Assembly (NCBI GenBank): GCA_947479645.1
Contig: CANKAJ010000042.1
Span: 1-34,612, forward strand
Direction of reading: 5' to 3'
Length of the DNA: 34,612 nt
Source of the DNA: Betaproteobacteria bacterium
Lineage (GTDB): Bacteria; Pseudomonadota; Gammaproteobacteria; Burkholderiales; SG8-39
The notes under the pieces were generated by a model that searched no databases, had not been told where the DNA came from, and was given only the letters and a program-made list of their open reading frames with translations. The position numbers and the translations under genes are program-made. Below are positions 1 through 17,400 of the stretch, piece by piece. Position 1 is the first letter of the stretch. Each line of letters opens with the position of its first letter.

Positions 1-90
1 CCAATTGCGATGGAGCAGGGCTTGCGCTTTGCTATACGCGAAGGTGGCAAGACCGTCGGTGCCGGTGTCGTGGCTAAGGTAATCCAGTAA
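1..90 (+). CDS. tuf: Elongation factor Tu, 3' end only (first tuf copy)
   Basis: Only the last 29 codons and the TAA stop lie in the window. They encode the end of EF-Tu domain III ([16 protein letters not shown] and onward to VVAKVIQ). EF-Tu is the GTPase that brings aminoacyl-tRNA to the ribosome. The bases are identical to the end of the complete tuf gene at 15736-16926, so this is the second tuf copy of the genome, a usual arrangement in proteobacteria. It sits just upstream of tRNA-Trp and secE, the usual tufB-like position. The start lies outside the window. Confidence 0.97.
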   Translation, partial: PIAMEQGLRFAIREGGKTVGAGVVAKVIQ

Positions 91-100
91 CCAGCCGTCA

Positions 101-123
101 GCCCAGAGCATTTCGCTTCGGGC
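101..123 (+). other. Stem-loop after tuf, copy 1
   Basis: GCCCAGAGC (101-109) can pair with GCTTCGGGC (115-123) around a 5-base loop. This gives a 9-pair stem with one A-C mismatch and one G-U pair. No T-run follows, so it is a poor intrinsic terminator. It could be an RNA processing or 3'-end stabilising structure between tuf and tRNA-Trp. The same hairpin follows the other tuf copy. Confidence 0.5.
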
Positions 124-136
124 GGCAAGCGAGTTA

Positions 137-212
137 AGGCCAATAGCTCAACTGGCAGAGCGTCGGTCTCCAAAACCGAAGGTTGGGGGTTCGATTCCCT
201 CTTGGCCTGCCA
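137..212 (+). tRNA. trpT: tRNA-Trp (anticodon CCA)
   Basis: The cloverleaf can be folded by eye. The acceptor stem is AGGCCAA (137-143) with TTGGCCT (202-208), followed by discriminator G209 and an encoded CCA at 210-212. The anticodon stem TCGGT/ACCGA encloses loop CTCCAAA with anticodon CCA at 170-172. The T arm contains GGTTCGATTCC. Length is 76 bases. It lies between tuf and secE with no clear promoter of its own, so it is probably cut out of a longer tuf transcript. Confidence 0.98.
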
Positions 213-255: not shown

Positions 256-633
256 ATGACGGCAAGCCAAGTTGCGGAACAAATGACCGACAAGATCAGG
301 GTGGTGACAGCAATTTTGCTGTTGATTACAGGCTTGGCAGGCTTCTATCTACTGTCGGCAAGTCCAATGGTACTTAGGTTGGCGAGTGTGCTGGGGGGTA
401 TCGTTGCGGCAACTGCGCTAGCCTGGTTTACCGAGCCTGGAAGGCAGTTCTTCAAGTTTGCTCGGGAGTCTGTAACTGAGACGAAGAAGGTGGTGTGGCC
501 GACCCGAAAAGAGTCGATACAAACCGCTGGTGCTGTATTTGCATTCGTGGTGGTTATGGCTGCATTCCTCTGGATCAGCGACAAGAGCCTCGAATATTTG
601 CTGTATGACCTGATTTTAGGGTGGAAGAAATAG
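256..633 (+). CDS. secE: Preprotein translocase subunit SecE
   Basis: SecE is the small clamp subunit of the SecYEG protein-export channel in the inner membrane. The 125-residue protein has three hydrophobic segments at about residues 16-34, 39-58 and 91-108. An amphipathic stretch before the third carries the conserved ETKKVVWP motif (75-82). Three segments is the E. coli-like form rather than the short one-segment form. The ATG at 256 has only a weak ribosome binding site; an in-frame ATG at 283 is an alternative. It is followed after 2 bases by nusG, the standard pairing. Confidence 0.96.
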
Positions 634-635
634 TC

Positions 636-1172
636 ATGTCGATGCGCTGGTACGTAGTCCACGCTTATTCGGGATTTGAAAAGACGGTGCAACGTGCGTT
701 GCTCGATCGGATTGCCCGCGCCGGCATGCAGGAACAGTTCGGGAAGATACTGGTGCCGACCGAAGAGGTCGTGGAGATGAAAGCAGGCCAAAAGAGTATT
801 TCTGAGCGGAAATTCTTTCCAGGCTATGTGCTCGTTGAAATGGATATGACGGACGAAGCTTGGCATCTGGTAAAAAATACGGCGAAAGTGACAGGATTTG
901 TGGGAGGGGCTCACGGTAGGAAGCCACCTCCAATCAGTGAGAAGGAAGTACAAAGTATTCTGCAGCAGATGCAAGATGGCGTCGAAAAACCGAAGCCAAA
1001 GATTCTGTTCGAGATTGGCGAGGCCGTTCGAGTCAAGGAAGGTCCATTTACAGACTTTCATGGTTCTGTAGAAGATGTCAATTACGACAAATCAAAATTG
1101 AGAGTTTCGGTAACGATATTTGGACGAGCTACTCCGGTAGAGTTAGAGTTCGGGCAGGTTGAAAAGGCTTAG
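636..1172 (+). CDS. nusG: Transcription termination/antitermination protein NusG
   Basis: NusG binds elongating RNA polymerase and links it to Rho or to the ribosome through S10. The protein has an N-terminal NGN domain beginning [13 protein letters not shown] and a C-terminal KOW domain (about residues 120-178) containing [15 protein letters not shown]. The ATG at 636 gives 178 residues. A GTG at 621 in the same frame overlaps secE and adds residues not expected in the family. GGAAG at 623-627 is a suitable binding site for the ATG. A second in-frame ATG at 642 is also possible. Confidence 0.97.
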
Positions 1173-13603: not shown

Positions 13604-15706
13604 GTGGCAGAAGTGGCGCGCAAGACCCCAATAGAGCGATACCGGAACATCGGCATTAGTGCGCATATTGACGCAGGTAAAACCACGACTACCGAACGGA
13701 TCTTGTTCTATACCGGTGTATCCCAAAGGATTGGCGAGGTTCAGGATGGCGCCACGGTAATGGATTGGATGGATCAGGAGCGCGAACGGGGAATAACAAT
13801 TACTTCGGCAGCGACAACATGCTTCTGGAAAGGCATGAATAGCGATCTACCGGAGCATAGAATTAATATTATCGATACTCCTGGTCACGTCGACTTCACG
13901 ATTGAAGTTGAGCGTTCGTTTCGCATACTTGACGGAGTATGTATGGTTTATGACGCTGTGGCAGGAGTGCAGTCACAGTCGGAAACTGTATGGCGGCAAG
14001 CGAACAAGTACAGGGTTCCACGTTTAGCATTTGTTAATAAGATGGATTGTAAAGGGGCAGACTTCCTTAAGTCTTACGATCATATTCGAACGAAGTTAAA
14101 CGGTAATCCTGTGCCAATCCAGATTCCGCTCGGGGTGGAGGATACGTTCGAAGGTGTTGTTGATCTGGTTGCAATGAAAGCAATCTACTGGGATGGCGCT
14201 TCTTTAGGGATGAAGTATTTTGTCCGTGAAATACCTGCCAGTCACATTGCTCAAGCAAAGATATGGCGCGATAAACTGCTCGAAACAGTGATTGATTCGG
14301 ATGAACGGCTGATGCGGAAATTTCTCGACGGAAACGAACTTTCGGTTGAAGAAATCAAGAGTGGATTGCGAGCACTGACGGTTGAGAATCAAATTGTTCC
14401 GATGCTGTGCGGTAGCGCATTCAGAAATAAGGGCGTGCAGGCCCTTCTTGATGCGGTTATAGATTATTTGCCTTCACCACTGGACGTTGAGCCGATGCAT
14501 GGAGAAGGAGTAACAGGGGAGTTGGAAGTAAGACTTCCGCGTGATGACGATCCCTTTACTGCTCTGGCATTTAAGGTCATGACTGACCCGTTTGTTGGGC
14601 AGCTTACTTTCTTTCGGGTATATTCAGGGGTTCTCAGTGCTGGGGATACAGTCTTTACATCAGGTCGTGGAAGTAAAGAGAGGATTGGACGTGTAGTACA
14701 AATGCACGCCGACCAGCGTCAGGAAATCGACGAAGTACGCGCAGGTGATATCGCGGCAGCTATTGGGCTGAAAGGCGTGACAACAGGTGAAACTCTGTGC
14801 AGTCCTCAAAACATAATTTTTCTGGACAAAATGGAGTTTCCAGAGCCGGTAATTGATTTGGCTGTAGAACCAAAAACATCTTTTGATCAAGAGCGGATGT
14901 CTCTGGCGCTTAATTGTCTAGCACAAGAAGATCCTTCATTTTTGGTGCGAATGGATGTTGAGTCTGGGCAGACCATCATTTCCGGTATGGGGGAACTTCA
15001 TCTGGAAATTATCGTCGACCGCATGAAGCGCGAATATGGTGTCGAAGCCAATATTGGAACACCTCAGGTGGCGTATCGTGAAACGATAAAGTCTAGAAGT
15101 GGGGATACTGAGGGTAAGTTTATCAGGCAATCTGGTGGGCGAGGTCAATATGGGCATGTGTGGATTCAGGTTGATCCACGACCCTGTGGTGATGGCTTCG
15201 AATTCGTAGATGGTATAAAAGGCGGCTGTGTTCCACGAGAATACATCCCTGCTGTCAGAGATGGGCTCGTAGATGCCTTGCCAAATGGGGTACTGGCGGG
15301 TTACCCGACTGTTGATATCAGGGTTACGCTATTCGATGGTTCATACCACGAGGTGGATTCAAATGAAAACGCCTTCCGTATGGCGGCATCGATGGCACTA
15401 AAGGATGGCTTAAGAAAAGCCAATCCCATTATTCTAGAACCGATTATGTTGGTCGAAGTAGAGATGCCTGAGGATGACATGGGGGATGTTTTGGGAGACC
15501 TGTCCTCACGTCGCGGCATGATTCAGGGGTTGGAGGATCTAGCTGGCGGCAAGGTAATACGGGCAGAAGTACCACTTGCAGAGATGTTCGGATATTCGAC
15601 TAGAGTTCGCTCGCTTACACAGGGGCGTGCGACATACAGTATGGAATTCAAGCATTACGCCGAGGCGCCTAAGCAGGTCGCTGAAGCGATTATTAACAAT
15701 AGATAA
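13604..15706 (+). CDS. fusA: Elongation factor G
   Basis: EF-G is the GTPase that drives translocation on the ribosome. The 700-residue protein has the G-domain motifs in order: [12 protein letters not shown] (20-31), RGITITSAA (62-70), DTPGHVDF (91-98) and NKMD (145-148). [18 protein letters not shown] and [13 protein letters not shown] follow in the later domains. It starts with GTG at 13604 behind AGGA (13596-13599); a second GTG at 13613 is possible and matches the shorter E. coli N-terminus. S124 replaces the usual Pro in the GGVQPQ motif and C149 replaces the usual Arg after NKMD. It is the str-operon copy, so most likely the housekeeping EF-G. Confidence 0.97.
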
Positions 15707-15735: not shown

Positions 15736-16926
15736 ATGTCCAAAGCCAAATTTGAGCGAACGAAGCCGCATGTGAATGTAGGGACGATAGGTCACGTGGA
15801 CCATGGTAAGACGACGCTGACGGCGGCGATTACGACGGTGCTATCGAAGAAGTTTGGCGGTGAGGCGAAGGCCTACGACCAGATTGATGCGGCCCCGGAA
15901 GAGAAGGCGCGTGGAATAACGATCAATACGGCGCACGTGGAGTATGAGACGGCGAACCGTCACTATGCGCACGTAGACTGCCCTGGTCATGCTGACTACA
16001 TCAAAAACATGATTACGGGTGCTGCGCAGATGGATGGTGCGATTCTGGTGGTGTCGGCCGCTGATGGTCCGATGCCACAGACGCGGGAGCACATTTTGCT
16101 GGCGCGTCAGGTGGGTGTTCCTTACATCATCGTGTTCATGAACAAAGCGGACATGGTCGATGACAAGGAGTTGCTTGAGTTGGTTGAGATGGAAGTGCGT
16201 GAGCTCTTGTCTAAGTATGAGTTTCCTGGTGACGACACCCCGATCGTGATTGGCAGCGCGTTGAAGGCGCTGGAGGGGGATACCTCGGAGATGGGCGAGG
16301 GGGCGATCATGAAGCTGGCCGAAGCGCTGGACACCTACATTCCGCAGCCTGAGCGGGCGATTGACGGGGCGTTTCTGATGCCGGTGGAGGATGTGTTTTC
16401 GATCTCCGGGCGTGGAACTGTGGTGACCGGACGGGTGGAGCGCGGTGTGGTGAAGGTGGGTGAAGACCTGGAGATTGTGGGACTCAAACCGACACTGAAG
16501 TCAGTGTGTACCGGTGTGGAGATGTTCAGGAAGCTGCTGGACCAGGGTCAGGCGGGTGATAACGTGGGTGTGTTGCTGCGTGGTACCAAGCGCGAGGAAG
16601 TCGAGCGCGGACAGGTGCTGGCCAAACCCGGATCGATTACGCCGCACACGAAGTTTGAATGTGAGGTGTACGTGCTCTCGAAGGACGAGGGCGGGCGGCA
16701 CACGCCGTTTTTCAACAATTACCGGCCGCAGTTTTATTTTCGGACGACTGATGTGACAGGCGCAGTGGAGTTGCCCGAGGGGACAGAGATGGTGATGCCT
16801 GGGGACAACATCAAGATGGTAGTGACGTTGATTGCGCCAATTGCGATGGAGCAGGGCTTGCGCTTTGCTATACGCGAAGGTGGCAAGACCGTCGGTGCCG
16901 GTGTCGTGGCTAAGGTAATCCAGTAA
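15736..16926 (+). CDS. tuf: Elongation factor Tu (complete tuf copy)
   Basis: The 396-residue EF-Tu has GHVDHGKTT (19-27), DCPGHADY (81-88) and NKADMVDD (from 136), then domain II and III sequences such as [13 protein letters not shown] and [13 protein letters not shown]. It delivers aminoacyl-tRNA to the ribosome. AGGA at 15722-15725 lies ten bases before the ATG. Codon use differs from the flanking genes: ACG, GCG, GTG and CTG dominate, where neighbours use mixed third positions. Its 3' end and flank match bases 1-129. It sits in the tufA-like position between fusA and rpsJ. Confidence 0.99.
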
Positions 16927-16965
16927 CCAGCCGTCAGCCCAGAGCATTTCGCTTCGGGCGGCAAG
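16837..16965 (+). repeat. Direct repeat: tuf 3' end plus 3' flank, copy 2
   Basis: This is the partner of 1-129, identical over 129 bases and in the same orientation. Identity stops at 16965, 39 bases beyond the tuf stop codon and 16 bases before the rpsJ start. Confidence 0.93.
16937..16959 (+). other. Stem-loop after tuf, copy 2
   Basis: This is the same nine-pair stem with one mismatch as at 101-123. It has no following T-run. Here it lies between tuf and rpsJ, which are otherwise 55 bases apart. Confidence 0.5.
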
Positions 16966-16981
16966 TAACAGGTAGATAAAT

Positions 16982-17290
16982 ATGCAAAGCCAAAAGATTC
17001 GTATCCGACTAAAGGCATTTGACTACCGGCTGATTGATCAATCAGCCTTGGAGATCGTTGATACGGCCAAGCGTACAGGCGCGGTCGTGAAAGGGCCTGT
17101 ACCATTGCCTACGAGAATCGAACGTTTTGACATTCTGCGTTCGCCCCACGTTAACAAGACGTCACGTGATCAGTTTGAAATTCGGACGCATTTACGTCTT
17201 ATGGACATCATTGATCCGACAGATAAGACAGTTGATGCCCTAATGAAACTCGATTTGCCAGCAGGAGTTGATGTAGAGATCAAGCTTTAA
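16982..17290 (+). CDS. rpsJ: 30S ribosomal protein S10
   Basis: S10 is part of the 30S head and also acts as NusE in antitermination with NusB and NusG. The 102-residue protein includes [16 protein letters not shown] and [20 protein letters not shown], with the expected length. It follows tuf directly, so the S10 block is joined to the str operon rather than having its own leader as in E. coli. The gap to rplC (136 bases) is long and structured. Confidence 0.98.
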
Positions 17291-17306
17291 AACGTAATTG
17301 CTTTTT

Positions 17307-17400
17307 GGAGTCACTGTCCCAAACGGCGACTCCGTTTCACTAACCGCCGGCCAATTGTAGTCGGCACCCCATACCAAGGTATATAAGTTCAACCTTGGTA
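17307..17400 (+). promoter_or_regulatory. Structured gap upstream of rplC
   Basis: Two competing stems lie near the start: GGAGTC (17307-17312) with GACTCC (17328-17333), and AAACGG (17321-17326) with CCGTTT (17332-17337). They share bases and cannot form together. A third hairpin, perfect over nine pairs, joins TACCAAGGT (17372-17380) to ACCTTGGTA (17392-17400), 27 bases before the rplC ATG. No T-run follows any stem. The layout suggests an RNA control element for the rplC-onward genes, where E. coli uses L4 feedback ahead of rpsJ. The function is inferred. Confidence 0.45.

Follow-up and report, generated by a model that had tools for sequence, protein, structure and literature searches.

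Do two copies of one gene agree beyond their stop codons, and if so, what sets the beginning and the end of that agreement? Concerted evolution of tuf has been reported from 29 bacterial orders (PMC6053082), and a kinetic model of tuf conversion in Salmonella, as described in PMC5485169, assumes that conversion tracts cannot pass the boundary of identity. The question is raised by the stretch of DNA analyzed here (the window, 34,612 nucleotides; C42:1-34612), in which a first-pass annotation had noticed that an identity between two tuf copies passes 39 bases beyond the stop codon, over a stem-loop, and then ends sharply. It had offered two readings, namely that the converted tract regularly includes the 3' flank, or that the hairpin is itself under selection, for example for processing of the tuf 3' end.

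Results

Two tuf copies share 39 bases past the stop codon

Direct comparison within the window confirmed that positions 1-129 equal 16837-16965 base for base. All features given with coordinates in this section lie on the plus strand. The first stretch begins with the 3' end of a second tuf copy that is cut by the contig edge (1..90). Its final 29 codons (1-87) correspond to residues 368-396 of the EF-Tu encoded by the str copy (100%), and the stop codon lies at 88-90, which leaves 39 bases common to both copies past the stop (91..129, equal to 16927-16965). The str copy is complete (15736..16926; Pfam GTP_EFTU, D2 and D3) and is located after fusA, the gene for EF-G (13604..15706; Pfam EFG domains). 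A stem-loop is predicted within the common flank of each copy, at 94-126 and in the str flank (16927..16965) at 16930-16962. The first mismatch is a C at 130 versus a T at 16966, and further agreement is chance-like. From there on, each copy has its own flank: the second copy is followed by tRNA-Trp (CCA) at 137..212 (ARAGORN; Rfam RF00005 at 137-209), secE at 256..633 (Pfam SecE) and nusG at 621..1172 (Pfam NusG), and the str copy by rpsJ, encoding ribosomal protein S10, at 16982..17290 (Pfam Ribosomal_S10).

The genome thus holds two tuf copies in conserved contexts, the second being present only as its last 29 codons. Over the 90 coding bases that are assembled it is identical to the str copy, and the corresponding ends in the same-genus genomes G001, G002 and G006 differ from them. 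Among the first 20 EF-Tu matches listed in named genomes, 16 carried betaproteobacterial names.

The first-pass annotation had also pointed out that the copies form direct repeats flanking about 16.8 kb that include rpoBC, and had suggested that recombination between them could duplicate or delete the rif-str region. Direct repeats around secE, rpoBC and the str genes are the ordinary layout: in 10 of the 11 relatives with two full-length tuf copies on one contig (among the matches listed), the copies have the same orientation and lie about 16-20 kb apart, G050 being the exception. A deletion between the tuf repeats would take out essential genes. The gene order of the window, with the tuf copies as direct repeats, matches the order tufB, secE, rpoBC, str and S10 described for the proteobacterial cluster (PMC8046335); unlike the cluster as given there, the window has tRNA-Trp between tuf and secE.

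The left end and the length of the identity are set by the contig edge

Base 1 of the window is also base 1 of its contig; where the identity begins on the left, and how it comes to a total of 129 bases, is thus set by the contig edge. The assembly consists of 308 contigs (5.74 Mb, 94.01% complete, 1.83% contaminated). The first 400 bases of tuf, used as a query against the assembled genome, matched only the str copy beyond chance level; with this region present once, the assembly lacks the 5' portion of the second copy.

Exact common stretches were sought among 81 of the 308 contigs (C42 and 80 others; 724,923 bases). C102 entered this set with 20,000 of its 20,008 bases, so that its right end there is not a contig end; it had no listed match. 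The 81 contigs yielded 14 distinct exact stretches of at least 100 bases that touch a contig edge, with lengths of 107, 109, 121, 126, 129 (six times), 135 and 149 (three times). The six internal exact stretches of at least 100 bases measured 101, 101, 111, 116, 134 and 146, and none of them 129. Five of the six edge cases of 129 bases are not tuf. They involve contigs C150, C210, C233, C246, C250, C260 and C280, all of which lie outside the ten places in the genome that match EF-Tu, and they derive from only three contig groups: C280/C250/C246 with three cases, and C260/C233 and C210/C150 with one each. As a biological tuf repeat has no reason to match the length of edges that are not tuf, we take the 129 bases to be a property of the assembly.

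Two observations on individual contigs were made alongside. C280 (L014) and C250 (L017) have many exact stretches of 65-149 bases in common with C246 (L327), nearly in register; the three are diverged near-duplicates and may stem from different strains in one bin. C183 (L139) opens in a period-12 repeat (1-106).

A single assembler word length k behind all overlaps was considered and rejected: in a set of 61 contigs, the length 129 turned up just two times (tuf and C210/C150), alongside other lengths. That 129 and 149 recur is visible only in the 81-contig set, and not all edges fit a set of k values, as edge overlaps of 73, 107, 121, 126 and 135 bases, and shorter ones, also occur. In draft genomes of relatives, exact matches between tuf contig pieces likewise repeat at fixed lengths, namely at 141 (G098, G072, G071 and the abutting G023 contigs) and at 127 (G081 and G095). 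For two assemblers, the largest k is commonly 141 or 127. We infer that 129 recurs at contig edges because a de Bruijn assembler run with several k left repeats unresolved there.

An excess of variant calls located k positions from contig ends has been described and attributed there to unresolved repeats (PMC5368935). Our case resembles these k-length effects in that identity reaches inward from the contig end over a set distance, and the same distance is seen again at other ends. It differs in having two recurring lengths, 129 and 149 (109 was seen once), a pattern that several k would give. Taken together, the 129-base length of the identity and its left end are properties of the assembly; the recurrence at contig edges was observed directly, and multi-k assembly is its proposed cause.

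The sharp ending noted by the first-pass annotation therefore marks a biological end on the right, but not on the left, which is the contig edge. The assembly error at a contig join that the annotation itself had considered accounts, in the form of this edge effect, for the left end and the length. The identity stops on the right at 39 bases beyond the stop codon, and this end is probably a true boundary and a real branch in the window's genome: an edge placed by the assembly graph should end on the last common base, and the 39 bases should then be common to both loci.

Identity past the stop codon is sporadic among relatives

A search of the family found any tuf match in 69 of 98 genomes, and 45 pairs of tuf copies were compared past the stop codon, drawn from genomes with two tuf 3' ends among the matches listed. 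Two of these were set aside, leaving 43 informative pairs. G054 had no anchor in this comparison; a separate comparison gave 1 base common past the stop. In G023, one piece breaks off at a contig end 18 bases after the stop codon and its counterpart is the rpsJ side; as these pieces abut and could belong to a single locus, their 18 common bases are not evidence for two loci. G119 was left out, its matches being fragments of one gene, and so were third tuf matches in G062, G072, G021, G012, G098, G101 and G111.

Beyond the stop codon, 40 of the 43 informative pairs (among the matches listed) stayed identical for 0-5 bases, most family pairs being compared only across contig-edge overlaps, where part of the identity is built in. 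Longer runs occurred in three pairs, all from genus g14: 16 bases in G019, 16 in G075 and 33 in G071. The 16-33 common bases of these pairs (G019, L062 and L063; G075, L291 and L292; G071, L281 and L282) are unlike the window's sequence. Flanks common past the stop are thus known from two genera only, the window's and g14. A tRNA-Trp motif lies 3' of one tuf copy in every informative pair.

Eighteen pairs had no coding mismatch in the compared stretch, and in 15 of them the flanks part within 5 bases past the stop (G041, G045 and G055 over 1100 compared coding bases, the remainder over 87-248). This is the situation that the first-pass annotation had named as speaking against its proposal, that is, flanks that differ after the stop codon while the coding regions stay identical. 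In the same-genus genome G002, 97 of 97 coding bases are identical and 1 base is common past the stop. With 40 of the 43 pairs, G002 included, parting within 5 bases, the extended flank is sporadic. The 39-base identity of the window departs from the usual, though not defining, end of identity near the coding ends. A general conserved 3' element after tuf was rejected, given the 5 or fewer bases common in the same 40 pairs. A converted tract that includes the 3' flank is plausible here and in the three pairs with at least 16 common bases; that it does so regularly, as the annotation had put it, is contradicted by the other 40.

As a separate observation, the two tuf copies differ within the compared coding end at 64 of 299 bases in G084 (L301, L302), at 33 of 300 in G067 (L257, L258) and at 40 of 187 in G116 (L297, L298). 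Homogenization of tuf may therefore not extend to the whole family, provided that the three are not mixed bins.

The predicted stem-loop and the origin of the common flank

Within window positions 88-135, a G+C-rich stem-loop is predicted at -17.6 kcal/mol (z -2.27; of 200 shuffles, 3 folded as well or better). For comparison with relatives, 109 distinct spacers were folded against 100 shuffles over 48 bases each, which lie partly beyond the common flank; only non-redundant sequences of at least 48 bases with a recognized downstream gene had been kept. Several candidate identities for the structure were rejected. An intrinsic terminator, that is, a G+C-rich stem followed by a T-run, had no plus-strand match in 1-1200 or 16500-17400. 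A dispersed palindromic repeat was searched for with the 23-base core, which occurs nowhere else in the assembled genome with up to 3 mismatches allowed. At gathering thresholds, Rfam matched only the tRNA.

Could the stem-loop serve a function after both tuf genes, be it in 3'-end processing, in stability or in partial attenuation, with selection holding its sequence identical? The fold is predicted in both copies of the window (z -3.16 and -2.70, ranks 12 and 16 of the 109 spacers), and a strong one (z -5.62) lies between tuf and rpsJ in the same-genus genome G006 (C154, L173, 88-132). However, selection on a fold needs no identity of sequence. Eleven of the 109 spacers fold more significantly than the better copy of the window, and nine of these belong to pairs with at most 5 bases common past the stop (the other two, from G006 and G114, have no second copy for comparison). 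Conversely, the six flanks of G019, G075 and G071, with their long common runs, show no strong fold (z -1.64 to +1.10), which led us to reject a need for a hairpin in common flanks. Within the window's own genus, the rpsJ-side spacers of G001 and G002 are not strong folds (z +0.15 and +0.43), and G002 has only its single base common past the stop; the lack of a plus-strand terminator match also counts against a function. We therefore regard a selected stem-loop as very improbable, and the suggestion of the first-pass annotation that the hairpin is under selection found no support in the comparison: relatives with common flanks are without strong hairpins, and spacers that are not shared often have stronger ones. 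A passenger stem-loop is the simplest reading.

The common flank could also be an artifact of the second junction, in which the assembler joined the 39-base flank of one tuf locus to the tRNA-Trp side, or in which the flank is that of a second strain. The stretch does sit at the very edge of the contig, and the near-duplicates C280, C250 and C246 suggest a mixture of strains in the bin. Against such a chimera, an edge at a branch should need boundary-crossing words in the data. The tRNA-Trp gene starts 46 bases after the stop codon, inside the spacer range of about -3 to 143 bases estimated for relatives, and G019, which carries both tuf copies within one contig, also has 16 common flank bases. 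On balance we consider a chimeric junction unlikely, if somewhat less so than a selected stem-loop. Still harder to credit is that the 39 bases are no trace of conversion but an ancient flank, kept since tuf was first duplicated. It would explain a common flank without copying past the end of homology, but with 40 of 43 pairs parting within 5 bases, and G002 after 1, the 39 bases would have to have survived unchanged only here.

Positions 17-33 past the stop in the rpsJ-side flank of G071 agree with the tRNA-Trp-side flanks of G019, G075 and G068, of the same genus, at 13, 13 and 12 of 17 bases, and with the rpsJ-side flanks of G019 and G075 at 2 of 17 each. This comparison of sequences suggests, without proving, that the G071 flank was copied along with the gene from the other locus. 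G072 and G067, the remaining g14 members compared, speak against that direction, agreeing with the G071 rpsJ-side flank at 5 and 3 of 17 bases on their tRNA-Trp sides and at 9 and 8 of 17 on their rpsJ sides. For the window's genome, 10 of the 14 bases just before the rpsJ start match those of G006; together with the stem-loop of G006, this weakly favors the str copy as the donor, although the spacers of G001 and G002 are without a strong stem-loop.

Discussion

Our findings point to an identity whose two ends differ in origin. We propose that the near-identical tuf genes were not resolved by a short-read de Bruijn assembler using several word lengths, and that the contig on the tRNA-Trp side would start with the final repeat word of the assembly graph, which is 129 bases long and ends at the last common base. 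Gene conversion between the tuf copies would once have run past the stop codon in the window's lineage; it would have left its boundary 39 bases after the stop, at the right end of the identity, and the stem-loop would have been carried along as a passenger. We hold this account as a whole, with a left end and length set by assembly, a right end made by conversion and a passenger stem-loop, to be likely.

The arrangement resembles the concerted tuf evolution described for Salmonella tufA and tufB (PMC6053082, PMC5485169), with a str copy and a copy upstream of secE that are identical where both are assembled. It differs from the Salmonella conversion model in its 39 common bases beyond the stop codon. 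The account has to allow for conversion beyond the end of homology, which is unusual and which the model, as set out in PMC5485169, excludes by assumption. Judged by titles and abstract openings, we recognized no paper on tuf 3' flanks among the open-licence papers listed. Beyond the assembly effect, the finding is an ordinary one, a modest variant of the tuf gene conversion that is already known.

The analysis carries a caution for draft genomes: when a perfect repeat starts at the first base of a contig, its length should be compared with the overlap lengths of the assembly itself before it is taken to be biological. Copying may on occasion pass the stop codon. More than 5 bases of common 3' flank, found in 3 of the 43 informative pairs listed and in the window, bear on how conversion tracts end. 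It is a tentative idea, which we regard as possible but doubtful, that in tuf conversion the repair synthesis sometimes overshoots the homology into the 3' spacer (by 39 bases here, 33 in G071 and 16 in G019 and G075) and is then rejoined to unrelated sequence. If it were true, these spacers would naturally record which way conversion had run, and it would be mistaken to assume that tracts stop where identity ends.
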